Assembly: GCA_019752115.1 (NCBI GenBank)
Contig: JAIEMN010000024.1
Location: forward strand, 1 to 64,000
From: Gemmatimonadaceae bacterium
Lineage (GTDB): Bacteria > Gemmatimonadota > Gemmatimonadetes > Gemmatimonadales > Gemmatimonadaceae
Length of the DNA: 64,000 nt
Reading direction: 5' to 3'
Positions 43,815-63,443 of this stretch are shown one piece after another. The stretch's first letter is position 1. Each line of letters starts with the position of its first letter. A program made the position numbers and the translations under genes. The notes beneath the pieces are model-generated. The model did no database searches and had not been told where the DNA came from. It saw only the letters and a program-made list of their open reading frames with translations.

Positions 43815-44537
<723 letters not shown>

Positions 44538-44567: not shown

Positions 44568-45959
44568 ATGCGGCTGACCCAGCGCATCGTGCTGAACAGT
44601 GCCGTGGTGGCCTCGTTGCTGATGGCCATCGTGCTCGTCGCGGTCGAACGGCGCGTGACCGAGCGCGTCCGCAATGAGGAACCCGTCGCCGCCCAGTCCA
44701 CCGATGACCTGCTCGCGGCCATCCGCCGCGACATCGTCCTCGCCGGTGGGGCGGCGATTCTCGTGGGCGTGGTGTTGGCGCAACTGCTCGCGCGCCCGGT
44801 CGCGCGCCCCATCGAAGAACTGCGCGACGTGGCGCGTGGCATCGCCGCCGGTGACCTGACACAACGCCCGTCGCTCTCCATTGTGGGCGGCGAAATGGGC
44901 GACTTGGCCGAAGCGCTGCGCCGACTTGCGGAGCAGCTCGACGCGCGGCTGCAGGCGCTGCACGCCGAGGAATCGCTGCTGGTCGCCCTCACCGAGTCGC
45001 TGAACGAAGGGGTGATTGCCGTTGACGCGCGGCAGCGCGTGGTCCGCATCAACGACACGGCGCGCGAGCAGCTCCGACTTCGCGAGCCGGTGCCCTTCCC
45101 CGCCGACTACCTGCCACGCGACCGCACCCTGCGCGAGGCGCTGGCGGCGGTGCTCGCGGGCGAAGAAGCGCACCCGGCCGAAATGCGCGTCGACGACCGC
45201 ACCCTCTCCCTCACGGCGCGTCCGCTCGAGGGCGGTGGTGCGGTGCTGGCGCTCTACGACCTGACGCCGGTTCGCCGCCTCGAAGCCGTTCGACGCGACT
45301 TCGTCGCCAACGTTTCGCACGAGCTGCGCACGCCGCTCACCGTCATCAACGGCTTTGTAGAGACGCTGCAGGACGATGACCTCCCGCTGGAGCTGCGGCA
45401 CCAGTTCCTCGGGATGGCCGCCGCGAATGTCCGCCGCATGCAGCGCATCGTGGACGACCTGCTCGACCTCTCGCGCATTGAATCGGGCGGGTGGCTGCCC
45501 AATCCCACCGAGCTGGATGTCGAAAGCCTGGCGACGGAGATCTTCGCGCCGTTGCAGGCGGCCGCCGCTGGCAAGGCGGTGGCCCTGCGCCGCGAACTCG
45601 GCGTCGACACCGTGTACTGTGATCCCACCGCGGCGCGTCAGGTGCTCAGCAACCTCGCGGAGAATGCGTTACGCCACACCCCGTCGGGTGAGGTGGTGCT
45701 CTTCGCCACCCCTGAGGACGGCGGCGTGTGGATGGGGGTGCGCGATACCGGTATCGGAATCAGCGCTGAACATCTGCCCCGCATTTTCGAGCGCTTTTAC
45801 CGGGCGGACCCGGGTCGCTCGCGCGAAGCCGGCGGCACGGGGCTCGGCCTCTCGATCGTGCGCCATCTGGCGGAAGCGCACGGCGGGCGTGTGAAGGCGG
45901 AGAGCACGCCCGGCGTGGGCACCACGATCGCGGCGTTCTTTCCCGGACGCGGGGCCTGA
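44568..45959 (+). CDS. phoR: PhoR-like sensor histidine kinase
   Basis: A 463-residue membrane kinase. Two membrane helices (about 8-26 and 56-75) enclose only ~30 residues, too small for a periplasmic sensor domain, as in PhoR kinases that sense through the Pst transporter and PhoU. Then follow HAMP (about 76-130), a PAS-like domain (LTESLNEGVIAVDARQRVV), the dimerisation domain with His251 in VSHELRTPL, and the ATPase with NLAENALRHTP, DTGIGI and GTGLGLSIV. It pairs with the regulator just upstream. Confidence 0.92.
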   Translation: MRLTQRIVLNSAVVASLLMAIVLVAVERRVTERVRNEEPVAAQSTDDLLAAIRRDIVLAGGAAILVGVVLAQLLARPVARPIEELRDVARGIAAGDLTQRPSLSIVGGEMGDLAEALRRLAEQLDARLQALHAEESLLVALTESLNEGVIAVDARQRVVRINDTAREQLRLREPVPFPADYLPRDRTLREALAAVLAGEEAHPAEMRVDDRTLSLTARPLEGGGAVLALYDLTPVRRLEAVRRDFVANVSHELRTPLTVINGFVETLQDDDLPLELRHQFLGMAAANVRRMQRIVDDLLDLSRIESGGWLPNPTELDVESLATEIFAPLQAAAAGKAVALRRELGVDTVYCDPTAARQVLSNLAENALRHTPSGEVVLFATPEDGGVWMGVRDTGIGISAEHLPRIFERFYRADPGRSREAGGTGLGLSIVRHLAEAHGGRVKAESTPGVGTTIAAFFPGRGA

Positions 45960-47775: not shown

Positions 47776-47826
47776 CCGTGACAAAGTCGTTGCAATTCCG
47801 TGGGCAACCCGAGACCTGTGTCACGG
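47776..47826. promoter_or_regulatory. Candidate operator in the receptor promoter
   Basis: CCGTGAC at 47776-47782 and its complement GTCACGG at 47820-47826 are 37 bp apart, in the 180-bp gap before the TonB-dependent receptor. TGACA at 47779 is followed 11 bp later by TTGCA, a poor match to a PHO-box half-site pair read in reverse orientation. A small C/G palindrome lies at about 47756-47772. Tentative. Confidence 0.3.
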
Positions 47827-47896: not shown

Positions 47897-50677
47897 ATGC
47901 GGCTCAGCGCTATGGTGCTTTCCCAGTCGGTTCGCCGCTTCGTGCTGGCGGCGGCGGCAGCACTCGTTCCCGCTTCCACATCCTTCGCCCAGGCGCCGGC
48001 TGCATCGGCGACGGGAAAGATTACCGGTCGCATCATCGATGCGGCCACCGGCCAGGGGATCGCCGAAGCCGGCGTCCAGGTGGTCGGCACGACGATCGGC
48101 GTCCAGTCCGGTGTCGATGGTCGCTTTACGATCGCCCGGGTGCCCGCGGGCACGGTCACGCTGCAGGTGCGGCGCCTGGGCTACGGCGCCAAGACGGTGA
48201 CCGGCCTCATGGTCTCCGCCAACGGCACGCTCGAGCAGGATATCTCGCTCAAGAGCGCCGATGTGCAGCTCGCCGCCGTCACCACCACGGCCAATAAGGA
48301 AAAGGGATCGGTCAACGATGCCCTCAACGCGCAGAAGAACGCCACGAATGTGGTGAACGCGATCACCGCCGAGCAGATCGCCAAGAGCCCCGACGCCGAT
48401 GCGGCGCAGGCGGCGCAGCGTGTGAGCGGTGTGACGGTCCAGGACGGCAAGTATCTGCAGGCGCGCGGCCTCGGCGAGCGCTACACCACCGCCTCGCTCA
48501 ACGGCGCGCGCATCCCGAGCCCGGAGCCGGAGCGCAAGGTCGTGCCGCTCGACCTCTTCCCGGCCGGCCTGCTGCAGGAAGTGTCCATGAGCAAGACGTT
48601 CACGCCGGACCAGCCGGGCGACTTTGCCGGCGCCAACGTGAACATCCGCACCCGTGAGTTCCCGGCGCGTCGCCAGATCAACTACAGCACCAGCGTGGGC
48701 GGCAACACGGCCGTCACCGGCCGCACCCTGCCCTTTGCTCCGCGGGCTGGCGGTGAGCTGCTCGGGATGGCCAACAGCTCGCGCAGCATTCCGTCGGCGA
48801 TCTCCAGCGCCAACTTCTTCAGCAACGTCACGCAGGCGCAGTACAACCAGATGGCGCTTCAGCAGCGCAACGTCTGGAACGCGACGCCCCGCAACGGCGG
48901 CATGAACGGCTCCTTCGGCGCCTCCACGGGCGGCAACAACATCCTCGGCAAGCGCATCGGATACGTCCTGAGCGGCAACTACGGCTACTCGGAAGAAGCG
49001 CGGACGAACGAGCGCTACGCCGTGGGCCAGCAGGGTTCGAACAACACCGTGCTCCCGCTCACCCAGGTCGCCGGCCAGACGGGCCGCTCGAGCGTACAGT
49101 GGGGCGGCATCGCGAACATCTCCACGATGCTCGGCACCTCCAACCGGCTGTCGCTCAACACGACGGCCACGCGCAGCGCCGACAATGAAGCCCGCACCGA
49201 CCGCGGCTTCGACGAGAACCTGAACGACTCGATCGCCCGCACCACCCTCCGCTATGTGGAGCGCGGCGTGGCGACGGCCAACCTCCAGGGCGAGCACCAG
49301 CTGACCGAGCGCAATAAGACGTCGTGGTCCACCACGTACGCCAGCACCACGCGCAAGGAACCGGATCGCTCGGACGTGGTGTACGCGCGCGATCGGAGCG
49401 GCAAGTATTCGCTGCTCGGCTCGCTCGACGGCGCGCGCCGCCTGTACTTCAACCTCGATGAGCGCAACGCCACGGCGCAGGTGGACCACAGCCTCAACAT
49501 CGGCTCGGTCGCCAGCCAGAACGTGGTGAAGTTCGGCGCCTACATGCGGACGACGGATCGTACGGCTGCGGCCCCGATCTACGCCTTCATCTCGCGCGCC
49601 GACGAGTCCGTTCGCTCGCAGTCGCCGAGCGTGATCTTCGGTGCGAGCCAGGCCTGCGGCAACTGCTCGCTCATCAACGTGCAGCCGATTGGTCAGGCCG
49701 GTTCATACACCGCCAACGACCGGACGGTGGCCGGCTACCTCATGACGGACTGGGGGCTGACGAGCAAGATCCGCATGATCGCCGGCGCCCGCTATGAGAA
49801 GGCGGACATCGAAGTGAATTCGAGCACGCAGGGTGGCTTCACGGCCGCGGCCAAGCTCAACAACGCCGACCTCCTCCCGTCGCTCCTGCTCAACACCAAG
49901 CTCACCGAGAACCAGAACCTGCGCTTCGGCATCACGCGCACGCTGGCCCGCCCGGAGTACCGCGAGCTGGCGCCGATCACCTTCCGTGATGTGCTCGGTG
50001 GCGTGTCGGTGACCGGCAACGACAAGCTCCGTCGCGCGCTGATTGACAACGTGGACCTGCGCTGGGAAGCGTTCCCGAACCCGGGCGAAGTGCTGAGCGT
50101 GGGCGTGTTCTACAAGAAGTTCGATCGCCCGATCGAGCGCGTCGAGTCGGCCACGTCGGGCGCCTACCAGGCGCGCTTCCAGAACGCGATGACGGCCACG
50201 AACATCGGCCTCGAACTCGAAGGGCGGAAGCAGCTGGGCAGCCTGCTCGGCTCGTGGGCCGATCCGTTCACGGTCTTCAGCAACGTGACGGTGATGCAGT
50301 CGAAGGTGAACCTCGACACGACGCAGGGGCTCACGGTGACCGACAAGTCGCGCCGCCTCGTGGGCCAGGCGCCGTATGTCGTCAACGCCGGCATGAGCTA
50401 CTCGAACCTCAGCGGCTCCACGAATGCCACGCTGCTCTACAACGTGGTCGGCGACCGCATCTTCGCGGCCGGCGTCCTGCCGCTCCCGAACATCGTGGAG
50501 AAGTCGCGGCACGTCGTTGACGCGTCGCTGCGCTTCCCGGTGCTTGGCAGCCTGTCGGGGCGCTTCGACGCCCGCAACATCCTCGATGCCCGCTACCGCT
50601 TCATGCAGGGCAACCTGGAACGCGAAGGCTACAACAGCGGTCGGTCCTTCTCGCTTGGGTTCTCCTGGAAGCAGTAA
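47897..50677 (+). CDS. TonB-dependent outer-membrane receptor in the phosphate island
   Basis: A 926-residue outer-membrane receptor. Signal peptide about 1-33 (ASTSFAQ). A carboxypeptidase-regulatory-like domain (about 41-120: ITGRIIDAATGQGIAEAGVQ) precedes the plug (about 135-250: NVVNAITAEQIAKSPDADAA, QRVSGVTVQDGKYLQARGLG). The beta-barrel ends in the aromatic strand FSLGFSWKQ. Start 47897 or 47912; codons further upstream run opposite the sirtuin. Ligand unknown. Its place between phoBR and pst, directly before a large lipoprotein, suggests import of phosphate or a phosphorylated compound; this is inference. A hairpin follows the stop. Confidence 0.88.
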   Translation: MRLSAMVLSQSVRRFVLAAAAALVPASTSFAQAPAASATGKITGRIIDAATGQGIAEAGVQVVGTTIGVQSGVDGRFTIARVPAGTVTLQVRRLGYGAKTVTGLMVSANGTLEQDISLKSADVQLAAVTTTANKEKGSVNDALNAQKNATNVVNAITAEQIAKSPDADAAQAAQRVSGVTVQDGKYLQARGLGERYTTASLNGARIPSPEPERKVVPLDLFPAGLLQEVSMSKTFTPDQPGDFAGANVNIRTREFPARRQINYSTSVGGNTAVTGRTLPFAPRAGGELLGMANSSRSIPSAISSANFFSNVTQAQYNQMALQQRNVWNATPRNGGMNGSFGASTGGNNILGKRIGYVLSGNYGYSEEARTNERYAVGQQGSNNTVLPLTQVAGQTGRSSVQWGGIANISTMLGTSNRLSLNTTATRSADNEARTDRGFDENLNDSIARTTLRYVERGVATANLQGEHQLTERNKTSWSTTYASTTRKEPDRSDVVYARDRSGKYSLLGSLDGARRLYFNLDERNATAQVDHSLNIGSVASQNVVKFGAYMRTTDRTAAAPIYAFISRADESVRSQSPSVIFGASQACGNCSLINVQPIGQAGSYTANDRTVAGYLMTDWGLTSKIRMIAGARYEKADIEVNSSTQGGFTAAAKLNNADLLPSLLLNTKLTENQNLRFGITRTLARPEYRELAPITFRDVLGGVSVTGNDKLRRALIDNVDLRWEAFPNPGEVLSVGVFYKKFDRPIERVESATSGAYQARFQNAMTATNIGLELEGRKQLGSLLGSWADPFTVFSNVTVMQSKVNLDTTQGLTVTDKSRRLVGQAPYVVNAGMSYSNLSGSTNATLLYNVVGDRIFAAGVLPLPNIVEKSRHVVDASLRFPVLGSLSGRFDARNILDARYRFMQGNLEREGYNSGRSFSLGFSWKQ

Positions 50678-50702
50678 GCCCGTAGCAACGATCTAGCCCG
50701 TG

Positions 50703-50742
50703 CATGACCCGGTGACGGTGACACAACCGTGACCGGGTCATG
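50703..50742. terminator. Long hairpin after the receptor gene, with embedded GTGAC repeats
   Basis: CATGACCCGGTGACGGT at 50703-50719 pairs with the segment 50726-50742 (one mismatch), followed by ATCGTTTGG. Likely terminator of the receptor gene. The same segment contains GTGAC at 50712, 50718 and 50729. The last two are 11 bp apart, the spacing of PHO-box half-sites, so it may double as a control site for the lipoprotein gene at 50822. Confidence 0.55.
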
Positions 50743-50821
50743 ATCGTTTGGGCACAATGTTTCGCCTTCTTAGAGACACTGCGGTACCCCCGCCCTCTGT
50801 ACACCTATCCAGCTCTCAGCG

Positions 50822-52576
50822 ATGACAACCTTCGCTCGTGTCCGTGCCATCGCCGTGGCCGTCTTCGCCGCCACGTCGTTTGCCGCCTGCAGTTCGAGTG
50901 ACTCCAAGGGAACCACCGAGCCGACGGCGACCACCGGCACCCTGACGGTCACCATCTCCGGCTTGCCGACGGGGGCGAACCCCGCCGTGACGATCACCGG
51001 GCCGAACTCGTACTCGCAGACGCTCGCGGCGTCGAACACCGCGACCGTGCCGGCGGGCGTGTACACGGCCAATGTCAGCGCCGTGACGGCGGGTGGCCTC
51101 CGCTACAACGCCACCGTCTCGGGCAACCCCGCCATCGTCACCGCAGGCGCGACGAGCACCATCACGGTGGCCTATGCCGCCGGTACGACGCCGACCGTGG
51201 TGCTGCAGGGGACCATTCCGACGAACCGTACGCTGACGGCCGACACGGCCTACATCCTTCGCGGCTTCACCTACGTCGCGAACGGCGCCACGCTCACCAT
51301 CGAAGCCGGCACCAAGATCGTCGGTGATTCGACGGCGCTGGGCTCGGCGCTGTTCGTGCTCCGCGGGGCGCGCATTGTCGCGAACGGCACCGCCGCGGCG
51401 CCGATTGTCTTCACGTCGCAGCGTACGGTCGGCAACCGCCAGCCCGGTGACTGGGGCGGCCTGATCATCGTTGGCAACGCCCGCAACAACCGCTCGGGCA
51501 GCATCATCGTGGAAGGCTCCGATGGCTCGGTGGTGGGCTCCCAGCAGGGTGGCATCGTGTATACCGGTGGCACGAACGACGCCGACAACAGCGGTACGCT
51601 CCGCTACGTGCGTGTCGAGTTCGCCGGCTACGCCACGCTGCCGGACGCCGAGCTGAACTCGTTCACCTTTGCGGCCGTCGGCAGCGGCACCACCTTCGAG
51701 TATCTCCAGTCCGTCTCGGGCCTCGACGACGCCTTCGAGTGGTTCGGTGGCACCGTGGACGGCAAGTATCTCGTGTCGTACGAGTCGGGTGACGACCACT
51801 TCGACACGTCGGAAGGCTACCGCGGTCGCAACCAGTTCCTGATTGCCTACCAGTCCACGTTCCTCACGCCGCGCGCCGGCGCCGGCGCCGTGTCGGCAGA
51901 CCCGCAGGGCTTCGAAGTGGACGGCTGCAATGGCGGCGGCTGCACGGCCCCCAGCGGCGCCAGCGCGCAGAGCTCGGGGCGCGATGACGGCCTCTGGACG
52001 ATGAACATGTTCGCGAATTACACGCTGATCGGCGTGGGCGCGTCGCAGACGACCCCGACCAACGGCGGCGTGGGCGCCGTGCTGCGTCGTGGGACGGGCG
52101 GTTACTACTTCAACGGCGTGATCGCGCGCTGGCCGCGGCAGGCGATCTCGATGCGCGACTCCACGACGAACAACCGCTTCCAGGTCGACTCGCTGTTCTT
52201 CAAGAACAACTATCTGGCCGAGAACGGCACCCAGAACGGCGGCGTGATCTTCGATCCGGTGGGCACGAACTTCGGCCAGGAAACGGCGTTCACGGGTCGT
52301 AACCAGAACAACACGGTGGCCGCGTCGGGTGTGACGGCCGCCAGCCTGTTCGCCTCGTTGCCGGCCGGGTCGGCGACGACCACCGCCGCCAACTTTGACT
52401 GGGCACCGGCGGCCGGTTCGCCGATCGCGACCGGTGGTCTGAGCTCCTTCGCGAGCGATCCCCGCATTGCGGCCCGCGCCAGCACCTTCATTGTCCCGAC
52501 GGCGTACCGCGGCGCGGCCGATCCGGCGGCGACCACGAAGTGGTGGGCCGGCTGGACCAACTACGCGCGCAATTGA
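50822..52576 (+). CDS. Large surface-type lipoprotein with beta-helix-like repeats
   Basis: A 584-residue lipoprotein (lipobox FAAC, Cys23) with a short Ser/Thr-rich linker. An Ig-like domain (about 40-120: LTVTISGLPTGANPAVTITG) is followed by a body rich in Gly, Asn and Thr. That body has beta-helix-like turns: YILRGFTYVANGATLTIEAG, TLRYVRVEFAGYATLP, FEYLQSVSGLDDAFEWFGGT, YESGDDHFDTSEGYRG. Similar proteins are known to me beside TonB receptors in Bacteroidota, with no proven function. It follows the receptor by 145 bp and is probably its surface partner. Two GC-rich hairpins follow the stop. Confidence 0.75.
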   Translation: MTTFARVRAIAVAVFAATSFAACSSSDSKGTTEPTATTGTLTVTISGLPTGANPAVTITGPNSYSQTLAASNTATVPAGVYTANVSAVTAGGLRYNATVSGNPAIVTAGATSTITVAYAAGTTPTVVLQGTIPTNRTLTADTAYILRGFTYVANGATLTIEAGTKIVGDSTALGSALFVLRGARIVANGTAAAPIVFTSQRTVGNRQPGDWGGLIIVGNARNNRSGSIIVEGSDGSVVGSQQGGIVYTGGTNDADNSGTLRYVRVEFAGYATLPDAELNSFTFAAVGSGTTFEYLQSVSGLDDAFEWFGGTVDGKYLVSYESGDDHFDTSEGYRGRNQFLIAYQSTFLTPRAGAGAVSADPQGFEVDGCNGGGCTAPSGASAQSSGRDDGLWTMNMFANYTLIGVGASQTTPTNGGVGAVLRRGTGGYYFNGVIARWPRQAISMRDSTTNNRFQVDSLFFKNNYLAENGTQNGGVIFDPVGTNFGQETAFTGRNQNNTVAASGVTAASLFASLPAGSATTTAANFDWAPAAGSPIATGGLSSFASDPRIAARASTFIVPTAYRGAADPAATTKWWAGWTNYARN

Positions 52577-52640: not shown

Positions 52641-52668
52641 GGCCGGCGCTCGTGATCGGGCGCCGGCC
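52641..52668 (+). terminator. Second hairpin before the small lipoprotein gene, with T-rich tail
   Basis: GGCCGGCGC pairs with GCGCCGGCC and is followed by CGTTGTTTT (52669-52677). This is the most classic intrinsic-terminator shape in the window. It ends 13 bp before the start at 52690, so it could instead act as an attenuator for the downstream pst operon. Confidence 0.65.
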
Positions 52669-52689
52669 CGTTGTTTTCCTGACATCCTG

Positions 52690-53358: not shown

Positions 53359-54471
53359 ATGCGACGAACTGTCCTGGTGGGTGCGGTACTCCTGAGCGGC
53401 GTCTTGCTCGCGAACTGCAACCGCGGTGGTGATGGATCAGGCGAGGCGCGCACGTCGGCGCCGGTCGTGAACGGGGTGCGGGTGGATCTGACCGGTGCTG
53501 GCGCCACGTTTCCCTATCCGCTGTATGCGCGCTGGTTCAACGAGTACGCGCAACAGACCAACGTGCGCATCAACTACCAGTCGATCGGCTCGGGCGGCGG
53601 CATCCGTCAGGTGGTCGCCCGTACGGTCGACTTCGGGGCGACGGACGTCCCGATGAGCGATGAGGAGCTGGTCAGCGCCAACGTGAAGGTGCTGCATATC
53701 CCCACGGTGATCGGCGCCGTCGCCCTGACGTACAACCTGCCCGGCCTCAAGCATCCCCTGCGTCTCAGCGGCGAGGTCATCGCCGACATCTTCCTCGGGC
53801 GCGTCACCCGCTGGAATGACCCGCGTATTGCGGCGCTGAACGACGACCTTGCGCTGCCGGCTGCCGACATCCTCGTCGTCCACCGCGCCGATGGCAGCGG
53901 AACGTCGTACATCTTCAGCGACTATCTGGCGAGTGTCTCGCCGGCGTGGGCCTCGGGCCCGGGCCGCGGCAAGGAGGTGCGCTGGCCCGTGGGTATCGGC
54001 GGCAAGGGCAACGAAGGTGTGGCCGGTCAGGTGAAGCAGATGATTGGGGCGCTCGGCTATCTCGAGGTGGTATACGCCCGCCAGAATCGCCTGCCGGTAG
54101 TGCACGTCCGCAATCGCGAGGGGCGCTTCATTTCACCGATGCCCTTTGAGATCGCCTCAGCCGCGACCGCGGTGCTCGATTCGGTCAATGCGCGTGCGAC
54201 CGGCGGCACCGATGCCGACCTTCGACTCTCGATCGTGAACGCGCCGGGGGCGCAGTCGTATCCGATCGCGTCGTTCACGTGGATGCTGCTGGCGCCGGAC
54301 GCCATCGGCCGCGCCAAGACTGAGCAGCTGGTGGCGTTCCTGCGCTGGGCGCTGTTGGAGAGCGGAGACATCGCCAGCACGCTCGGCTATGTGCCGCTGC
54401 CGAGTGACGCGGCCGCCCGCATCGTGGAGCGACTCGAGCGCGTGACCAACGTCCCCGCCTCGTCACGGTGA
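53359..54471 (+). CDS. pstS: Phosphate ABC transporter substrate-binding lipoprotein PstS
   Basis: A 370-residue phosphate-binding protein that feeds PstCA. An N-terminal lipobox (LLANC, Cys20) marks it as membrane-anchored, unlike the soluble E. coli PstS. Ligand-site blocks are LTGAGATFPYPLYARWF, SIGSGGGIRQVVA, FGATDVPMSDEEL and HRADGSGTSYIFSDYL. The C-terminal lobe has GALGYLEVVYA and YPIASFTWMLL. It begins 3 bp after the small lipoprotein and its stop overlaps pstC by 4 bp. Confidence 0.94.
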   Translation: MRRTVLVGAVLLSGVLLANCNRGGDGSGEARTSAPVVNGVRVDLTGAGATFPYPLYARWFNEYAQQTNVRINYQSIGSGGGIRQVVARTVDFGATDVPMSDEELVSANVKVLHIPTVIGAVALTYNLPGLKHPLRLSGEVIADIFLGRVTRWNDPRIAALNDDLALPAADILVVHRADGSGTSYIFSDYLASVSPAWASGPGRGKEVRWPVGIGGKGNEGVAGQVKQMIGALGYLEVVYARQNRLPVVHVRNREGRFISPMPFEIASAATAVLDSVNARATGGTDADLRLSIVNAPGAQSYPIASFTWMLLAPDAIGRAKTEQLVAFLRWALLESGDIASTLGYVPLPSDAAARIVERLERVTNVPASSR

Positions 54472-55418
54472 GGGGTCCCGATTCGGTCGCCCCCGGACGT
54501 CGCAGTCTTGGGGATCGCTTTTATCGGCCAGTAACGGCGGCCTGCGCGGCCGCGATCCCGCTCGTCCTGACGATGCTGGCGGTCTACCTGCTGCACGGCG
54601 CCTGGCCCGTGCTGTCCACGCATGCCGGTCAGTTACTGACCGGCAGCGTGTGGGACGTGCCGCGCGGGCAGTTCGGCGCGCTCCCGGTGATCGGCGGCAC
54701 GCTCCTGTCGTCGCTGCTGGCGCTGGTGCTGGCGACACCGCTGGCGTTGTCGGTGGCGATTCTGTCGGCCGAACTGGCGCCGCGCGCCGTGCGGGAGCCG
54801 CTCACGTTTCTGGTCAATCTGCTGGCGGCGATTCCGTCGGTCGTGTACGGGCTCTGGGGGATCTACGTGCTGCTCCCCTTTCTGCGCCGCACCGTCATGC
54901 CTGGGTTGATGCTCCTGCCGGGGAGCCTGTTTCGCGGTCCGGCGTACGGTCCAAGTCTCCTGGCGGCCACGCTCCTGCTGGCCGCGATGATCCTGCCGTT
55001 CATTGCTGGTGTGAGCCGCGATGTGCTGCTCGCGGTGCCGCGCGCCCAGCGCGAAGCGGCGCTCGCCCTGGGCGCCACGCGTTGGGAGATGATTCGCGAC
55101 GCGGTGCTCCCCGCCGCCCGACCGGGGCTCTTCGGCGGGATCATGCTCGGCCTCGGGCGCGCCCTCGGCGAGACGATGGCGGTCACGATGGTCATCGGCA
55201 ATCGCCACGCGCTGCCGTCGTCGCTCCTCGATCCCACCTATACGATGGCCTCGCTGCTGGCGAACGAGTTCGCCGAGGCGAGCAGCGCCACGCACCTGGC
55301 CGCACTCTTGGCGGTCGCCACTGTTCTGCTGGCCCTCACGCTCCTCGTCAACGTGATTGCGCGGTGGTTGGTCGCCCGCGTGGAGCGTGGGGCGTCCATG
55401 CCCGGACGATGGGCATGA
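54468..55418 (+). CDS. pstC: Phosphate ABC transporter permease PstC
   Basis: A 316-residue inner-membrane permease with six hydrophobic helices; it forms the channel with PstA. Conserved parts are GTLLSSLLALVLATPLALSV, NLLAAIPSVVYGLWGIY, the cytoplasmic coupling loop VPRAQREAALALGATRWE and GRALGETMAVTMVIGN. GTG start at 54468 in a GTGA overlap with the pstS stop, a sign of translational coupling. Confidence 0.94.
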   Translation: MRGPDSVAPGRRSLGDRFYRPVTAACAAAIPLVLTMLAVYLLHGAWPVLSTHAGQLLTGSVWDVPRGQFGALPVIGGTLLSSLLALVLATPLALSVAILSAELAPRAVREPLTFLVNLLAAIPSVVYGLWGIYVLLPFLRRTVMPGLMLLPGSLFRGPAYGPSLLAATLLLAAMILPFIAGVSRDVLLAVPRAQREAALALGATRWEMIRDAVLPAARPGLFGGIMLGLGRALGETMAVTMVIGNRHALPSSLLDPTYTMASLLANEFAEASSATHLAALLAVATVLLALTLLVNVIARWLVARVERGASMPGRWA

Positions 55419-56341
55419 CGGCGCCCACACGCCTCCGCCCGGTGGGACCGGCGCCGCAGCGCTCGCTGCAGCGGCGGCGGGCAACCAGTCAGCTCATGAC
55501 CGGGCTGATCTGGGCCGGGAGTATCGCCGCGCTGGCGCCATTGGTGCTGATCGTGGGCTACATCCTCGTGAACGGGATCGGCCAACTCACCCCCAGCTTC
55601 CTGACCCATCCCCCCGCCCCTCCGGGCGTGCGTGGCGGCGGCGTGGGGAACGGGGTCGTTGGCAGCCTGCTGCTCGTCGCCATCGCCGTTACGCTCGGCG
55701 TTCCCATCGGCATTGGCGCCGGTCTGTATCTCGCCGAACGTCGCCCATCACGGCTGGCAGCCATCACCCGCATGCTGGCCGACGTGATGAGTGGCTTGCC
55801 CTCGATCGTGATTGGGCTGTTCGCGTGGGAGCTGGTGGTGCGCCCCACGGGGCACTTCTCGGCGTGGGCCGGCGGCGTCGCGCTGGCGCTCATCGTGCTG
55901 CCCATTGTGGCGCGGGCGACCGAAGAAATGGTGCGGCTGGTGCCGGAGACGATCACCGAAGCGGCACTCGCGCTGGGGTTCAGTCGTTGGCGCACGGCAT
56001 GGCAGGTCGTACTCCGCACGGCGCTTCCTGGCGTGACGACGGCGGTGCTCCTCGCGCTCGCCCGTGTCGCCGGCGAAACGGCGCCCCTCCTCTTTACCGC
56101 GTTCGGCAATCCGTTCTGGTCGGTTGATCCGGCACGACCGATTGCCGCGCTGCCGCTCCAGATTTATGCGTACGCGCTCAGTCCGTACGACGAGTGGCGC
56201 GCGCAGGCGTGGACGGGGGCCCTGGTTTTGCTCGTCCTGGTCGCCGGCATCGGCTTCGCCACCCGTTGGGTCACGCGGTCACGGGCCCGGTTGCTGGCCG
56301 CCGTCACGCCGCGCGTCGGTCGCCACGAGGAGCCGCTGTAA
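55415..56341 (+). CDS. pstA: Phosphate ABC transporter permease PstA
   Basis: A 308-residue permease, partner of PstC. It has six hydrophobic helices, VGYILVNGIGQLTPSFLT, GVPIGIGAGLYLAE, MLADVMSGLPSIVIGLFAWE, the coupling loop VPETITEAALALGFSRWRTA and VAGETAPLLFTAFGN. ATG 55415 makes an ATGA overlap with pstC; ATG 55409, two codons upstream, is also possible. Its TAA stop overlaps the first pstB start by one base. Confidence 0.94.
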   Translation: MTAPTRLRPVGPAPQRSLQRRRATSQLMTGLIWAGSIAALAPLVLIVGYILVNGIGQLTPSFLTHPPAPPGVRGGGVGNGVVGSLLLVAIAVTLGVPIGIGAGLYLAERRPSRLAAITRMLADVMSGLPSIVIGLFAWELVVRPTGHFSAWAGGVALALIVLPIVARATEEMVRLVPETITEAALALGFSRWRTAWQVVLRTALPGVTTAVLLALARVAGETAPLLFTAFGNPFWSVDPARPIAALPLQIYAYALSPYDEWRAQAWTGALVLLVLVAGIGFATRWVTRSRARLLAAVTPRVGRHEEPL

Positions 56342-57156
56342 TGCCCCCCACGACGGCGACGCCGCCGGCGAACGAGATGGCGCCAGGCGTCGCCATCGCC
56401 GAGCTCACGGCCGGATACGGGCCGCGCACCGCGCTGCACGAGGTGGCGTTCACCAGTCATCCCGGCCGCGTGACCGCCATCATCGGGCCGTCGGGCTGCG
56501 GCAAGAGCACGCTGCTGCGCTGCATCAATCGGCTCCATGAGGAGCAGCCGCTCGCGTGGGTCCGCGGTCAGGTGCAGATCACGCGTGGCGACCAGACCGG
56601 CGGCGATGTGGTGTATGATGCCGAAGCCGATGTGGCCGCCCTGCGGCGCCGTATCGGGATGGTCTTTCAGCGGCCCACGCCCTTCGTCACCATGTCGATT
56701 TTCGAGAATGTCGCCGCTGGCGTGCGCGCGCATGAGCCGCAGCTGTCGCCGCGCGATCTCGAGGCGCGCGTGACCGACGCCCTGCGTCGGGCGGGACTGT
56801 GGCGCGAAGTTGCCGATCGGTTGAATGGCAATGCGATGGCGCTCTCCGGCGGGCAGCAACAACGACTCTGCCTGGCCCGCGCGCTCGCCGTTGGCCCGCG
56901 CGTGCTGCTGCTGGACGAGCCCACCGCGTCGCTCGATCCGCTCGGCACGCAGCGCATCGAAGAGCTCATCTACGACCTGCGCGGCAGCGTCACGATGATC
57001 ATGGTCACGCACAACATGCAGCAGGCGGCCCGGATTTCGGACGACACGGTGTTCCTGCTGCAGGGGAAGGTCGTGGAGCGCGCCACCACGCGGCAGCTGT
57101 TCACCGCGCCACGCGATCCGCGCACCGAGGCCTACATCACCGGGCGTTTCGGATGA
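56341..57156 (+). CDS. pstB: Phosphate ABC transporter ATPase PstB, first copy
   Basis: A 271-residue ATPase that powers phosphate import. It has Walker [11 protein letters not shown]-loop MVFQRPTPF, signature [10 protein letters not shown], Walker [12 protein letters not shown] and the switch [13 protein letters not shown]. All catalytic elements are intact. It starts at the TAATG junction with pstA and overlaps the second pstB by 4 bp. The phrase [11 protein letters not shown] and a longer segment before the Q-loop set it apart from the second copy. Confidence 0.95.
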
Positions 57157-57938
57157 CGCCACTCGCGCGTGAGGCGACCGCGGCCGGCGGCGCCGTCACC
57201 TTCCAGCGCTATTCGGCGTGGTTCGACGACGTGCCGGCGTTGACGAACGTGTCGCTGGCCATTCGGCCACGCAGTGTCACGGCGCTGATCGGCCCGTCGG
57301 GCTCCGGCAAGAGCACGCTGCTGCGCGCGATCAATCGCCTCAACGATGGCCTGCCAGGGGTTCGCCAGAGCGGGCGTCTGCTGCTGGACGACGAGGAGAT
57401 CCACGGCGAAGGCACCGACCTCACGCTGCTGCGCCAGCGCGTGGGGATGGTGTTTCAGCGCTCCAATCCGTTCCCGCGCTCGATCTTCGACAACGTGGCG
57501 TACGGACCGCGCCTCAACCGCCTGGCGAGCGGGGCCGACCTCGAAGAACGGGTGGAGCATGCCCTGCGGCGCGCCGCCCTCTGGGAGGAAGTCCGCGACC
57601 GGCTGCACGAGAGCGCGCTCACCCTGTCGGGCGGCCAACAGCAGCGCCTCTGCATCGCGCGGGCGCTCGCCAACACGCCGGAAGTCCTGCTGCTCGACGA
57701 GCCGACGAGTGCCCTCGACCCGCAGGCCACGCAGCGGATCGAGGAACTCCTCTACGAACTGCAGCAGGCCCTGACCATTGTGATCGTGACGCATAACTTG
57801 CAGCAGGCGGCGCGGCTCGCGAGCCGGACCGCGCTGCTGGTGGATGGCGTGCTCGTGGAAGAGGGCGATTCCGCCCGGCTCTTCACCCGGCCCACCGATT
57901 CACGGACCGAAGATTTCATCACCGGGAGATTCGGCTGA
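57153..57938 (+). CDS. pstB: Phosphate ABC transporter ATPase PstB, second copy
   Basis: A 261-residue second PstB directly after the first, with an ATGA overlap. Walker [11 protein letters not shown]-loop [14 protein letters not shown], signature [10 protein letters not shown], Walker [12 protein letters not shown] and [13 protein letters not shown] are complete. The [17 protein letters not shown] block is closer to the classical PstB pattern than that of copy 1. A PstB homodimer normally suffices, so a heterodimer or conditional exchange is possible. It overlaps phoU by one base. Confidence 0.95.
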
Positions 57939-58678
57939 TGCCAGAAGTGGGTGGCGGATATCGGCATTTCCACGACGAGCTGGCGCTCCTCAAGCAGCGC
58001 CTGCTCGACATGTCCGAGCGCGCCGAAAGCCTGGTGGCGTTGTCGGTCGAAGCGCTGGTGGAGCGCGACCTCGACAAGGCCGACGCGGTGATCGATGCTG
58101 ACCGGGAGCTCGATCGCATGGAGGTTGAGGCGGAGAATCAGGCGATCGCGATGCTCGCGCTGCAGCAGCCAATGGCCCGCGACCTGCGCTTCCTGATCGG
58201 CGCCATCAAGGTCTCGAGCGATCTCGAGCGCGTGGGCGATCATGCGGTCAACATTGCCCAATCGGCGGTGCGCATGGCCAATGGCCCCGCCGGCCCCGCG
58301 CTGCCGGCGCTGGCGGACATGGCTCGCCGCGCCCGGGCGATGCTCAGCGATGCGCTCGACGCCTTCATTCGGGGCGACGGCGCGCTCGGCCGCGCGGTGG
58401 GCAAGGCCGACGACGAAGTGGACGGGATGCATGAGGGGATCTTCCGGACGCTGCTCACCCACATGATGGGTGACCCGCGTCTCATCTCGCCGTCGCTCGA
58501 GCTCCTGCTCGTGAGCCGGAATCTGGAGCGCGTGGCGGACCTGGCCACCAACATCGGCGAGGATGCCGTGTATCTTGCAGAGGGGAAACAGATCCGCCAT
58601 CGCTTCGAAGAGGACACCGAGCCGCTCGCGGCGTCGGCTGACCTGCCCCCTGCCACCGATTCGCCCGCCTCTTCCTGA
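57938..58678 (+). CDS. phoU: Phosphate signalling protein PhoU
   Basis: A 246-residue helical protein made of two three-helix PhoU repeats: RHFHDELALLKQRLLDMSER, LRFLIGAIKVSSDLERVGDHAVNIAQ, and again SLELLLVSRNLERVADLATNIGEDAVY. The E(R)xxDxxxN metal-type motifs occur in both repeats. It links the Pst transporter to the PhoR kinase and represses the regulon when phosphate is plentiful. The start overlaps the pstB stop (TGATG). The ppx start is 8 bp downstream. Confidence 0.95.
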   Translation: MPEVGGGYRHFHDELALLKQRLLDMSERAESLVALSVEALVERDLDKADAVIDADRELDRMEVEAENQAIAMLALQQPMARDLRFLIGAIKVSSDLERVGDHAVNIAQSAVRMANGPAGPALPALADMARRARAMLSDALDAFIRGDGALGRAVGKADDEVDGMHEGIFRTLLTHMMGDPRLISPSLELLLVSRNLERVADLATNIGEDAVYLAEGKQIRHRFEEDTEPLAASADLPPATDSPASS

Positions 58679-58685
58679 CCCTCGC

Positions 58686-60269
58686 ATGACCGCTCCTTCG
58701 GGTTCCGACGTTCGCATCGCCGCCATCGATATCGGCTCGAACTCGGTCCGTCAGATCGTCGCCGATGTCTCCCCCACCGGGCAGATACGCGTCGTTGACG
58801 AAATGAAGGCGATGCCCCGGCTGGGCGAGGGAATCGAAACCACGAACGCGCTCTCCGAAACGGCGGTCGAGGCCGCGCTGGCCGCAGTCCAGCGGATGGT
58901 CACGCTGGCGCGCCAGCTGGGCGCCGAACGCATCGAGATCGTGGCCACCAGCGCGGTGCGCGATGCCAGCAATGGGGGGGAGTTCACCGCCCGTCTCGCG
59001 GCCACGACCGGTGAAGCCGTGCGCATCCTGAGTGGCGAAGAAGAGGCCATTCTCTGCTATCGGAGCGCGCTGGCCCACTTTGAGCTGGGCGCGGGGCGGA
59101 CCGTCGTCATGGATATCGGCGGCGGCTCGCTGGAACTCGTGCTCGCGAAGGACGGCCTCATCGAACGCCTCGCGTCGCTGCCGTTCGGCGCGGTGCGCCT
59201 GACCGAGAAGTTCCTCACGCCGTCGGTGCGACCGCGTCGGGTCCGTGCGCTACGCGAGCATGTGCGCCTGGGCCTCAAGAAGGCCGTCCCGGTCAAGGAT
59301 TGGCGTGGCGCCCAGATCATCGGTTCGGGCGGCACGTTCACGAATCTGGCCGGCATCATGCTCTCGCGTCACGGCGTCGCCGCGCGCGGAACCCACGGCA
59401 CGCGCGTGACCCGGGCGGAACTGGAGCATGTGCTCGACTGGCTTCAGACGCTCGACGCCGATGAGCGCCGCTACGTGCCGGGGCTCAATCCGGCGCGCTC
59501 GGATATCATCGTGGCCGGCTTGGCCGTGGCGGCGGAGGTGTTGGCGCGCTTCGACCCCCGTGATTTGCTCACCTCAGGGTACGGCATTCGGGAGGGCCTG
59601 CTCCTCGAGGCCGCGCGCGTCATGCCGCCGATTGTCGATCCCGGAGTGGCCCGCGAGCGGTCGGTGCGCGAATTCGCCGAGCGCTGTCATTACGAGGAAC
59701 CGCACGCGCGGCAGGTGCAGCGCCTCGCCCTGCAGCTGTTCGATGCGCTCGCGAACCGCATGGCGCTCACGCCCGAGGATCGCCGTCTGCTCGCCGATGC
59801 GGCGCTCCTGCACGATGTGGGATACCACATCAACTACGAGAAGCACCACAAGCACTCGTTCCATCTCATCTCGCACGCGGAACTCCTCGGCATGACGCCC
59901 GCGGAGCAGGTGATGATTGCGCATATCGCGCGCTACCACCGCGGCGCGGCGCCCAAGAGCAAGCATGTGGGCTTCGGGGAGCTCGATCGCGCCTCGCGCG
60001 AACGCATCATCAAGCTCTCCGCGATCCTCCGCTTCGCCGACGGCATGGATCGCGGCCACGTTGCCGCCGTGGACACGGTGAGTGTGAAGTGGGGTGGCGA
60101 GGTCGTTCGCGTCCACCTGCGCGAGACGGAAGGCGCCACGAATGTGCGCCTGGAGTGCTGGGGCGCGAGCCGGAAGCGCCATCTGCTCGAAGACGTCCTC
60201 GCGCGCCGCATCGTCGTGGTGGCCCCCGACGGCACCGAAATCAGCGCCGACGATCTCGACGGCGAGTAG
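58686..60269 (+). CDS. ppx: Exopolyphosphatase/guanosine pentaphosphatase family (Ppx/GppA)
   Basis: A 527-residue enzyme that frees phosphate from polyphosphate ends or pppGpp. The actin-like part (about 10-310) has AAIDIGSNSVRQIVADV, MDIGGGSLELVLA and GSGGTFTNLAGIM. The C-terminal part (about 320-500) has an HD-type domain with ALLHDVGYHINYEKHHKHS. ATG 58686 begins the conserved core. It ends the pst operon and faces ppk, with 5 bp between the stop codons. Confidence 0.93.
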   Translation: MTAPSGSDVRIAAIDIGSNSVRQIVADVSPTGQIRVVDEMKAMPRLGEGIETTNALSETAVEAALAAVQRMVTLARQLGAERIEIVATSAVRDASNGGEFTARLAATTGEAVRILSGEEEAILCYRSALAHFELGAGRTVVMDIGGGSLELVLAKDGLIERLASLPFGAVRLTEKFLTPSVRPRRVRALREHVRLGLKKAVPVKDWRGAQIIGSGGTFTNLAGIMLSRHGVAARGTHGTRVTRAELEHVLDWLQTLDADERRYVPGLNPARSDIIVAGLAVAAEVLARFDPRDLLTSGYGIREGLLLEAARVMPPIVDPGVARERSVREFAERCHYEEPHARQVQRLALQLFDALANRMALTPEDRRLLADAALLHDVGYHINYEKHHKHSFHLISHAELLGMTPAEQVMIAHIARYHRGAAPKSKHVGFGELDRASRERIIKLSAILRFADGMDRGHVAAVDTVSVKWGGEVVRVHLRETEGATNVRLECWGASRKRHLLEDVLARRIVVVAPDGTEISADDLDGE

Positions 60270-60274
60270 CCCGG

Positions 60275-62395
60275 TCAGCCGCCGGACTTCTTCTTGCGCT
60301 TGGGGCTCGGCGGCGGTTCGTAGCCCCACGGCTGCTTCATGAGGCGCTGCTGGGTCGCGCGAGGCTCCTGATTGCCCGGCGCCCGGCGGGTGTACCGCCC
60401 ATCGGCGCCAAGCTGCCACGCCTGCCGATTGTCATCGAGACAGGTGGCCAACACCGCCTGCAGCCCCCGATGCAACGTCGGATCATCGATCGGCGCCATG
60501 GTCTCGACGCGGCGATCGAAGTTGCGAGGCATCCAGTCGGCCGAGCCGATGTAGTACTCCGGATGCCCGCCATTCGCGAAGTAGGCGATGCGGGAGTGCT
60601 CGAGGAAGCGCCCGATGATGCTGATGACCCGAATGTGATCGCTGGTCCCCGGCAGCCCCGGCACGAGACAGCAGATGCCGCGCACGATGAGATCGATCTC
60701 GACGCCGGCCTGCGAGGCGCGATACAGGGCGGCGATGACCTCGGGGTCCACCAGCGCATTCATCTTGGCGATGATTCGCCCGCCCCGCCCGGCCTGTGCA
60801 TGGGCGGTCTCTCGATCGATCAGCTCCAGCACCCGAGCCCGCAGTGACGCCGGCGCCACCGCCAGCCGCCGATAGCGACGCTGCCGCGAGACGCCGGTCA
60901 GCGAGTTGAACAGATCGCCAATATCGGCGCACATCTGGGGCTCGCAGGTGAAGAGCCCCATGTCCGTGTAGTGACGCGCCGTCTTGGAGTTGTAGTTGCC
61001 CGTGCCAATATGCACGTACCGACGGATGCCATCGGCATCGCGACGGACCACGAGCACGGTCTTGGCGTGCGTCTTGAGTCCCGGCAGTCCGTACGCGACG
61101 TGGATGCCGTAGCTTTCCATCGTGCGCGCGAAGGTGATGTTGTTCTGCTCATCGAAGCGCGCCTGCAGCTCGATCAGCACCGCGACCTGCTTGCCGGCTT
61201 CGGCGGCTTCGGTGAGCGCCCGCACGATCGCGGTGTCGCCGGAGGTACGATAGAGCGTCAGCTTGATCGCGAGAACATTCGGATCGTTGGCCGCCGCCTC
61301 GAGGAAGGCCTCGACTGACGACGTGAACGACTCGTACGGGTGATGGACGAGAATGTCCCGCTCGCGAATGGCCTCGAAGACATTGCGGGCGTCCCGAAAC
61401 GCCGGCGGCACCGCCGGCGAGTGAGGCGCGTCGCGCAGCTCGGGGATGTCGAGCGTCGCGAGCTGCATCAGGTCACCCAGCTCGAGAAGCTCGTCGAAGT
61501 CATGCACATCGCGCGGCCCGAGTGGCGCGACCATCTGCGTTTCGCTCTCGCCCAGCTCCTCGAGCAGCAGCTGCCGCATGGGCTCGGGCATGTCGCGCTG
61601 CACCTCCAGCCGTACAACTTCCCCGAAGCGACGCTGGAAGACCTGCTGCTCGATCGTCTCGAGCAGGTCTTCCGGCTGATCGATCTGGCCGAGGTCGAGA
61701 TCCGAGTAACGCGTGATGCGGAAGGTGTACCAGCGGCGCACCTCCATCCCGGTGAAGAGCGTGTCGAGATGAGCCCCGATCACCTCTTCCAGCGGCACAA
61801 AGGCGTGCTCGCGCCCGAAGCTCACCCAGCGCGGCAGCGATCGCGGCACCTTCAGGCGCGCAAAGTGCTCCTTGCCGGTGATGGGATCCCGGATGTCCAC
61901 CGCGAGGGACAGCGACAGATTCGAGATGTACGGGAAGGGATGCCCGGGATCGACCGCGAGCGGCGTCAGTACCGGGAACACCTGCGACTCGAAGAAGGCG
62001 TGCACGCGGTCGCGCTCCTTCTCCGTCAGCGCGTCCATCCCGACAAGCTGAATACCGCGCGCCGCGAGCGCAGGCATCAGCTCCTTGCGGAGCGCCTTGC
62101 GGCGGCGATCCAGCAGTTCCCGGACGCGAACCTGAATGGCTTCGAGCTGCTCCGACGGCTGCAGCGGATCGGGGGCGTACTGCGGCGCGCCCCCGTGCAC
62201 CTTGCGACGCAGCCCGGCCACCCGGACCATGTAGAACTCGTCCAGATTCGTGCTGAAGATCGCCAGGAACTTGAGGCGCTCCAGCAGTGGGACCCGCTCG
62301 TCGAGCGCCTCCTCCAGCACGCGCGCATTGAAATCGAGCCACGAGAGCTCGCGGTTCAGATACGGCAGGGCCAGCGACGTCGACGAGCCAACCAT
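60275..62395 (-). CDS. ppk: Polyphosphate kinase 1
   Basis: A 706-residue enzyme that polymerises ATP gamma-phosphates into polyphosphate. The N-terminal domain has YLNRELSWLDFNARVLEEA and IFSTNLDEFYMVRVAGL. Catalytic blocks are PYESFTSSVEAFLEAAANDP, LKTHAKTVLVVRR, YVHIGTGNYNSKTAR and NALVDPEVIAALYRASQAGV. The C-terminal tail is basic (PSPKRKKKSGG). It begins 10 bp after the pit stop and is the last gene of the DUF47-pit-ppk operon. It converges on ppx, so the enzymes for synthesis and breakdown face each other. Confidence 0.96.
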   Translation of the reverse strand: MVGSSTSLALPYLNRELSWLDFNARVLEEALDERVPLLERLKFLAIFSTNLDEFYMVRVAGLRRKVHGGAPQYAPDPLQPSEQLEAIQVRVRELLDRRRKALRKELMPALAARGIQLVGMDALTEKERDRVHAFFESQVFPVLTPLAVDPGHPFPYISNLSLSLAVDIRDPITGKEHFARLKVPRSLPRWVSFGREHAFVPLEEVIGAHLDTLFTGMEVRRWYTFRITRYSDLDLGQIDQPEDLLETIEQQVFQRRFGEVVRLEVQRDMPEPMRQLLLEELGESETQMVAPLGPRDVHDFDELLELGDLMQLATLDIPELRDAPHSPAVPPAFRDARNVFEAIRERDILVHHPYESFTSSVEAFLEAAANDPNVLAIKLTLYRTSGDTAIVRALTEAAEAGKQVAVLIELQARFDEQNNITFARTMESYGIHVAYGLPGLKTHAKTVLVVRRDADGIRRYVHIGTGNYNSKTARHYTDMGLFTCEPQMCADIGDLFNSLTGVSRQRRYRRLAVAPASLRARVLELIDRETAHAQAGRGGRIIAKMNALVDPEVIAALYRASQAGVEIDLIVRGICCLVPGLPGTSDHIRVISIIGRFLEHSRIAYFANGGHPEYYIGSADWMPRNFDRRVETMAPIDDPTLHRGLQAVLATCLDDNRQAWQLGADGRYTRRAPGNQEPRATQQRLMKQPWGYEPPPSPKRKKKSGG

Positions 62396-62405
62396 CAGGC
62401 GCCCA

Positions 62406-63443
62406 TCACAGCGGATTGGTGACGGCGAGGAGCTTGTACGTCAGCGCCGCCATCAGCGCACTCGCCGGAATCGTGATCACCCAGGCCCAGACGATCCGAC
62501 TGGCGAGCCCCCAGCGCACCGCCGAGAGGCGATTGGTCGCGCCGACACCAACAATGGCACCGGTGATCGTGTGTGTGGTGGACACCGGGATGCCGACGCG
62601 CGTCGCCAGCAGAATGACCATCGCGCCACCCGTCTCGGCGCAGAAGCCACCCACCGGGCGCAGCTTGGTGATGCGCGTGCCCATCGTGTGCACGATGCGC
62701 CAGCCGCCGAACAGCGTGCCCAGCGAGATCATCGTGTAGGCGCTCAACTCCACCCACACGGGGATCGAGTCGAGTGAGGTGACGTGCAGATGCGAGAGCA
62801 GCCCCGTCTGCGAGGCGAACGCCGACTGCGATGCCACCAGCAGGCCCACGATGATGCCCATGGTCTTCTGGGCGTCATTCCCGCCGTGCGCCAGCGAGAG
62901 CAACGCCGAACTGGTGAGCTGCGCCACCCGGAAGAACCGTTCGGCCTTCGGGTTCGCGACCTTGTTGAAGATGTTGAGCACCAGGATCATGAGCACAAAG
63001 CCCATGAAGGCGCCGAGCGCCGGCGAGACCACGATGGCGGACAGCGTCTCGATCCACTTCTTGCCCCACAGCAGCGCCCCAAAGCCGGCCTTGGCCACGG
63101 CGGCCCCGGCGTAGCCGCCGATGAGCGCATGCGAGGAACTGGACGGGATCCCGAACCACCAGGTGATCAGGTTCCAGATGATCGCGCCGAGGAGTCCGCC
63201 AAAGATGACGTTGGCGTCGACGACGTTGAGGCTCACGAAACCGGACGCCACCGACTTCGCGACCCCCGATCCCACGAAGAAGAGGGCCGAAAAGTTGAAG
63301 ACGGCAGCCCAGATGACGGCCGCCAGCGGATTCAGGACGCGCGTCCCGACGATGGTCGCGATCGAATTCGCCGAGTCGTGAAACCCGTTGATGAAATCGA
63401 AGACCAGCGCAGTGACGATGATGAAAACGACGAAGGTGACCAC
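62406..63443 (-). CDS. pit: Inorganic phosphate transporter, PiT family
   Basis: A 345-residue low-affinity phosphate transporter with about ten membrane helices. The two inverted family repeats are visible as VFDFINGFHDSANSIATIVG and SLAHGGNDAQKTMGIIVGLL. Two GIPxSxxHA/T-like blocks, WWFGIPSSSSHALIGG and VGIPVSTTHTITGA, complete the signature. It lies 18 bp after a DUF47 gene, its common partner, and 10 bp before ppk. Confidence 0.95.
   Translation of the reverse strand: MVTFVVFIIVTALVFDFINGFHDSANSIATIVGTRVLNPLAAVIWAAVFNFSALFFVGSGVAKSVASGFVSLNVVDANVIFGGLLGAIIWNLITWWFGIPSSSSHALIGGYAGAAVAKAGFGALLWGKKWIETLSAIVVSPALGAFMGFVLMILVLNIFNKVANPKAERFFRVAQLTSSALLSLAHGGNDAQKTMGIIVGLLVASQSAFASQTGLLSHLHVTSLDSIPVWVELSAYTMISLGTLFGGWRIVHTMGTRITKLRPVGGFCAETGGAMVILLATRVGIPVSTTHTITGAIVGVGATNRLSAVRWGLASRIVWAWVITIPASALMAALTYKLLAVTNPL

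Follow-up and report, generated by a model that had tools for sequence, protein, structure and literature searches.

A TonB-dependent receptor and ElpS/FII-type beta-helix lipoprotein, probably under PhoB control, within the phosphate locus of a Gemmatimonadaceae bacterium

Passage of phosphate across the outer membrane is usually ascribed to porins, and phosphate-starved Bacteroidota and Caulobacter have abundant lipoproteins of the ElpS/FII kind. In Caulobacter, ElpS is induced by Pi starvation, is surface-exposed and has a TonB receptor partner, and the gene order lipoprotein, receptor, gsp genes has been published for elpS/cc0171 in both Caulobacter and Sphingomonas alaskensis (PMC2996285). 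The receptor gene cc0171 is expressed in rich and poor medium alike, its loss left ElpS unchanged, and purified ElpS showed no phosphatase activity (PMC2996285). Caulobacter PhoB controls the type II secretion system (T2SS) together with several TonB receptors (PMC11208175). In Flavobacterium johnsoniae, the receptor Fjoh_0545 and the lipoprotein Fjoh_0546 (FII), both encoded beside phoBR, rise by log2 8.0 and log2 9.9, respectively, upon Pi depletion; FI, FII and FIII are 31-36% identical to the Caulobacter lipoprotein, and plant-associated Bacteroidetes are, according to the same authors, without PstSABC (PMC8115612). Surface exposure or release into the medium is experimental for ElpS and FII (PMC2996285, PMC8115612).

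Here we describe a pair of this kind from a Gemmatimonadaceae bacterium. Features of the window (the whole stretch of DNA analyzed, 64,000 nucleotides) that bear on the pair are as follows:

43815..44537, forward strand: phoB-like response regulator (Response_reg and Trans_reg_C)
44568..45959, forward strand: phoR-like sensor kinase (HisKA, HATPase_c, HAMP and PAS)
46012-46704, reverse strand: PEP-CTERM protein beside phoR, between phoR and the receptor
46886-47716, reverse strand: sirtuin (Sir2/CobB-like), between phoR and the receptor
47777..47794, forward strand: Pho-box-like 11-bp direct repeat CGTGACAAAGTCGTTGCA from the de novo motif, 120 bp 5' of the receptor start in the sirtuin-receptor gap
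47897..50677, forward strand: TonB-dependent receptor P0001, 926 residues (open reading frame as first listed; Pfam and NCBIfam), with an N-terminal carboxypeptidase-regulatory-like domain and a plug
50703..50742, forward strand: 11-bp perfect inverted repeat (catgacccggt ... accgggtcatg) read from the sequence of the receptor-lipoprotein gap, a possible attenuator
50822..52576, forward strand: ElpS/FII-family beta-helix lipoprotein P0002, 584 residues (open reading frame as first listed; lipobox Cys23, alignments and AlphaFold2 model)
52641..52675, forward strand: terminator-like hairpin (12-bp stem and T-rich tail) 3' of P0002
52690..53355, forward strand: small lipoprotein LP221, NTF2/cystatin-like fold (alignment and model), between P0002 and pstS
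53359..54471, forward strand: pstS, lipobox LLANC (TIGR00975, 350 bits)
54468..55418, forward strand: pstC (TIGR02138, 291 bits)
55415..56341, forward strand: pstA (translated search and synteny; secondary PstC-family match)
56332..57938, forward strand: two tandem pstB genes (56332-57156 and 57132-57938; TIGR00972, ABC_tran in both)
57938..58678, forward strand: phoU (TIGR02135)
58563..60269 as the listed open reading frame, forward strand: ppx exopolyphosphatase (Ppx-GppA), the true start probably lying near 58680
60275..62395, reverse strand: ppk polyphosphate kinase (PP_kinase domains)
62406..63443, reverse strand: Pit-type phosphate transporter (PF01384; open reading frame), next to a reading frame that is read as its DUF47 partner

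P0001 and P0002 are flanked by phoBR on one side and pstSCABB-phoU-ppx on the other. The preliminary description of this DNA had placed them so, and open reading frames, coordinates and family models agree with it, the latter confirming pstS, pstC, the second pstB, phoU, ppx, ppk and the PhoB-like regulator/sensor pair. The PEP-CTERM protein, the sirtuin and LP221 are additions to that description. A sirtuin holds the equivalent position between phoR and receptor across the genus (L049, L053, L078-L082, L097-L099, L109). One also stands beside the module in L108 (CALQGY020000019.1), a sequence labelled Candidatus Kuenenia stuttgartiensis in which sirtuin, receptor, lipoprotein, LP221 and pst are arranged as in the genus of the window; its label or binning looks wrong.

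Comparison with proxy relatives, rather than with the ElpS or FII sequences themselves, assigns P0002 to the ElpS/FII family: it has a predicted lipobox, a core homologous to that of the proxies, a pectin-lyase-like right-handed beta-helix and an adjacent TonB-dependent receptor of the matching class. P0002 aligns with plasmid-encoded homologues from Sphingomonas parapaucimobilis (E 1e-32; 38% over 251 aa) and from Indioceanicola (E 3e-52). In both, the lipoprotein gene is followed by a TonB receptor gene and then by gsp genes, and the S. parapaucimobilis plasmid receptor itself aligns with P0001 (E 2e-54). A phoBR-linked Chryseobacterium protein also aligns with P0002 (E 2e-82, 39% across most of the core), and its gene order of phoR, phoB, receptor and lipoprotein is matched by Fjoh_0543-0546 of F. 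johnsoniae (PMC8115612). Lipobox Cys23 is nearly invariant in the homologue alignment. The N-terminal domain is variable, being Ig-like in P0002 and FnIII-like or absent in other homologues. A search for paralogues in the same genome yielded none, the core being single copy; the remaining matches concern only the Ig-like N-terminal domain and fall in one protein, encoded on contig C19 at approximately 5.9-9.7 kb (L004-L010 of genome G000), where an open frame of 1856 aa carries many repeats of the P0002-type Ig-like domain.

To survey the pairing, P0002 homologues, pstS (TIGR00975) and receptors of the P0001 class were sought in 150 Gemmatimonadota genomes. Genuine P0002 homologues were present in 53 of these, a count that excludes two extra matches restricted to the Ig-like N-terminal domain; all 53 lipoprotein-bearing genomes also encode the receptor, four encode the receptor alone, and 93 have neither gene (Fisher 3e-36, shared ancestry ignored). 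In Gemmatimonadota, 52/57 loci have the receptor directly 5' of the lipoprotein, as do 23/23 further loci and 55/57 loci of a mostly Bacteroidota set. Receptor and lipoprotein are a near-obligate pair, conserved in three bacterial phyla.

As a check, the preliminary description had proposed looking at whether homologous pairs in related genomes remain adjacent to pst or pho genes, and the outcome is strongly positive. Among 40 strong P0002 homologues in Gemmatimonadota, pstS lies within 10 kb of 27 and some pho, pst, ppx or ppk gene lies near 37, while a phoB-like regulator occurs no more than 10 kb from the module in the majority of related loci. Of seven genomes assembled into one or a few contigs, six have their only pstS no more than 10 kb from the lipoprotein; such proximity has a chance of <1% per genome (binomial tail 1.7e-12 over the 7 genomes, shared ancestry ignored), and the linkage statistics rule out a chance neighborhood of the pair and phosphate genes. 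Among the mostly Bacteroidota loci, a searched phosphate gene lies within 10 kb in only 19/57, several of those contigs being short, and the roughly two thirds that do not show this linkage count against a phosphorus-related reading of the pair.

Control by PhoB, also proposed in the preliminary description, gained support from the upstream regions. Expectation-maximization applied to 70 receptor upstream regions, with no prior motif supplied, recovered CGTtACacgttCGTTGCa (CGTKAC-N5-CGTTGCA, an 11-bp direct repeat), and 45 mostly Bacteroidota upstream regions, analyzed in a run of their own, gave cTTAACAtT..gtTAACA. The motif halves correlate at an 11-bp offset only (0.85 in the set of 70 and 0.96 in Bacteroidota), an interval that they share with classic Pho boxes. 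Scores of at least 15 were reached in 60/70 receptor upstream regions versus 3.7% of random windows; of the 60 scoring sites, 56 have the orientation of the coding strand, and most lie 95-135 bp 5' of the start. In a pstS-centered set of 20 loci (19 from genomes without the pair and one whose pair is elsewhere), the receptor-upstream matrix placed a site 5' of pstS in 12/22 cases (p<0.05, binomial 1e-10). Since genomes that do not encode the pair carry this motif 5' of pstS as well, it is very probably the PhoB box, and the repeat at 47777-47794, a predicted PhoB-type site 5' of the receptor such as would place the pair in a PhoB regulon, is probably a PhoB site. A strict Pho-box pattern matched 10 sites in the bacterium's own genome versus 7 for the reversed control, which is no enrichment and too weak to define a regulon, and which counts against the reading given below. 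One strict match, outside the window at approximately 79.4 kb of contig C24 (L186), lies just 5' of a gene whose secreted product has no Pfam match but contains metallophosphoesterase-like motifs (GDVPYE, HIGDIKSG and TPGDNEWTDC); this is a possible further PhoB target.

A phosphorus-linked function and PhoB control of the pair are well supported. We consider it fairly probable that receptor, lipoprotein and associated proteins form a PhoB-controlled outer-membrane module for phosphorus acquisition, a reading that starts from what is shown here on gene linkage, obligate pairing, the probable PhoB box, the lipobox, the fold and the family relationship. Also in its favor are the response of the F. 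johnsoniae pair to Pi depletion (PMC8115612), the Pi-starvation-induced ElpS with its receptor partner (PMC2996285), the PhoB control of Caulobacter TonB receptors (PMC11208175), and the PstS that stays in the module of genomes without pstC and phoU. The pair probably serves to move phosphate, or compounds containing phosphorus, across the outer membrane, both the substrate and direct transport being our inference. Caulobacter results count against this reading, since cc0171 is reportedly expressed in both media and ElpS is unaffected by its loss (PMC2996285).

The fold of the lipoprotein raises the main alternative. No Pfam family matched P0002, and a sequence search returned no solved structural relatives. 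An AlphaFold2 model built from a 50-sequence alignment bears out the beta-helix-like repeats noted in the preliminary description: it is a right-handed parallel beta-helix, modelled with high confidence for the greater part of residues 130-580. The pLDDT exceeds 90 for most of 130-370 and for the bulk of the C-terminus, and drops to about 50-70 in the loops around 375-390 and 475-490. By VIA-align, Z is about 22 (22.7) against tailspikes, alginate epimerases and NosD, and near 19 against polygalacturonases. Nine acidic residues (E277, D302, D303, E306, D324, D325, D328, E365 and D367) are invariant in 50/50 homologues, and several are spaced about one beta-helix coil apart, which makes a metal-binding, ligand-binding or catalytic face plausible.

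Such a protein might chiefly be an extracellular enzyme, cleaving glycans or phosphoglycans, or it might activate secreted phosphatases, with the receptor importing a breakdown product or serving otherwise; in that case organic phosphorus would be mobilized rather than free phosphate captured. We hold this unlikely, though not negligibly so. The pectin-lyase-like fold, with its matches to GH28, GH87 and alginate enzymes, and the invariant acidic residues lend themselves to it, and because beta-helices are common to many carbohydrate-active proteins the fold counts against the module reading. FII, likewise, was modelled on polygalacturonase (PMC8115612). ElpS overexpression led to higher extracellular alkaline phosphatase activity, which fits an extracellular accessory role as much as transport (PMC2996285). 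On the other side, although the fold is shared with GH28 polygalacturonase and GH87 glucanase, neither glycoside-hydrolase nor other carbohydrate-active Pfam families were matched by P0002's 50 homologues (nor glycoside-hydrolase families by P0002 itself), the purified ElpS protein was without phosphatase activity, and obligate pairing with a receptor is the behavior expected of a capture partner.

Many TonB receptors carry metal chelates. The receptor could accordingly import a metal- or siderophore-type ligand (e.g. calcium- or iron-phosphate complexes), the link to phosphate being one of co-regulation only; the acidic ladder of P0002 could bind metal ions, but the location and the probable PhoB box point to phosphate and not iron, and we regard this as improbable. 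About as improbable is a SusCD/PusCD-type transporter, in which a SusD-like lipoprotein would form a lid over a SusC-like barrel: the genetic arrangement and the predicted phosphate regulation are those of PusCD, and the CarboxypepD_reg (CarboxypepD_reg_2, PF13715) and Plug domains of P0001 recur in SusC/PusC proteins, but SusD domains (PF07980, PF14322 and relatives) are found in neither P0002 nor its 50 homologues, the beta-helix differs from the alpha-helical SusD fold, and the receptor matches no SusC-family NCBIfam model, its best match being TIGR01782 (TonB-Xanth-Caul) at a score below cut-off. The likeness to SusCD drawn in the preliminary description holds as an analogy, and as a statement of family it is already contradicted; ElpS/CC0171 of Caulobacter and FII/Fjoh_0545 of Flavobacterium are better-matching pairs.

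Reading the locus as a PhoB-controlled phosphorus-acquisition module, two further proteins may be considered part of it. LP221, for which no Pfam family matched, adjoins 37/40 strong P0002 homologues in Gemmatimonadota and is the third conserved member of the module in that phylum. An alignment of 17 sequences shows invariant Cys30 (the predicted lipid anchor), Cys170 and Cys185, and its model resembles NTF2/cystatin-like proteins (VIA-align Z 9.0). From where its gene lies, LP221 may be an accessory protein of the periplasm or the outer membrane. A different lipoprotein of 182 aa, also without a Pfam family, lies 3' of the beta-helix lipoprotein at L142:7343-7891 and in 11 further Cytophagales loci; homology between it and LP221 found no support (hhalign probability 0.2).

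The second protein is PstS. In at least 16 loci (L054, L079-L084, L088, L089, L091, L099, L100, L102, L104, L106, L116) the order is LP221, PstS and ppx, with no pstCAB-phoU in between. No PstC match exceeded the cut-off genome-wide in eight such genomes (one weak match, E 2e-13, in G068), and no PhoU match did so in the ten examined PstS-without-pstCAB genomes (one weak match in G073); Pit is present in all ten. Incomplete metagenome-assembled genomes could inflate these absences, although G129 is a single contig of 100% completeness. The module PstS proteins concerned are diverged (TIGR00975 E 1e-71 to 1e-95, versus 1e-105 to 1e-124 otherwise); by our reading of the motifs they appear to retain most phosphate-site residues, and some seem to have a membrane anchor that is not cleaved. 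One metagenome locus (L105) combines a diverged module PstS with a canonical pst operon that is complete. A quick tree of the receptors requires 4 changes between presence and absence of pstCAB, with gain and loss indistinguishable.

Since PstS is repeatedly retained beside the receptor pair, a job with the module is the best explanation for it, which suggests that PstS operates together with the receptor and its partners, perhaps supplying Pit or acting as a sensor. A single relay of receptor, beta-helix lipoprotein, LP221 and PstS, with PstS independent of PstCAB-PhoU and either delivering to Pit or sensing phosphate for PhoR, is a tentative proposal that we think has a modest chance of being right. 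If true, retention after loss of the ABC transporter would make PstS the partner of a TonB receptor and not of an ABC permease. An exact-phrase search of the literature found no paper on PstS without PstCAB, which is weak evidence of novelty.

The sequence of events under the module reading may be pictured as follows. Upon phosphate exhaustion, PhoB would act on the 11-bp repeat at 47777-47794 and induce the receptor together with its ElpS/FII-type lipoprotein. At the surface, the lipoprotein would capture or process a phosphate-bearing ligand by means of the acidic ladder conserved along its beta-helix, and hand it to the dedicated TonB-dependent receptor for passage to the periplasm. There, lipid-anchored PstS, possibly with LP221, would take over, passing phosphate to PstCAB or, in relatives without PstCAB, to Pit. 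Binding, transport and the order of the relay are inferred, and the ligand might be free phosphate or organic phosphorus.

The locus shows a lipoprotein and one receptor class that are near-obligate companions across phyla, probably controlled by PhoB and physically joined to pst, and adds two candidates, LP221 and the PstS kept without PstCAB. The question of what ElpS does is thereby brought down to a few direct tests of binding, complex formation and deletion, including in a cultured polyphosphate-accumulating genus.

Among described systems, the receptor-lipoprotein pair is of a known kind. With FII/Fjoh_0545 (PUSIV of Flavobacterium johnsoniae), compared via the Chryseobacterium relatives, it shares a receptor followed by a lipoprotein of beta-helix/pectin-lyase fold beside phoBR, whereas the pair in the window, from another phylum, is embedded in a complete pst operon together with LP221, ppx, ppk and pit. 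With ElpS (CC0170)/CC0171 of Caulobacter crescentus, compared via homologues, it shares the combination of a phosphate-linked surface lipoprotein (putatively so for P0002) and a TonB receptor, but the locus in the window is without type II secretion genes, its lipoprotein is 3' of the receptor (ElpS is 5'), and the N-terminal domain differs. PusCD/SusCD of Bacteroidota have a similar phosphate-regulated arrangement of receptor and surface lipoprotein, with CarboxypepD_reg on the receptor; in the window, the lipoprotein is a beta-helix and not a SusD, and the receptor is closest to TIGR01782. The canonical pstSCAB-phoU operon is complete downstream of the pair, while several relatives without pstCAB-phoU keep a diverged PstS in the receptor module. 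What is new relative to these systems is the phylum, the PhoB-box evidence, LP221 and the retention of PstS.
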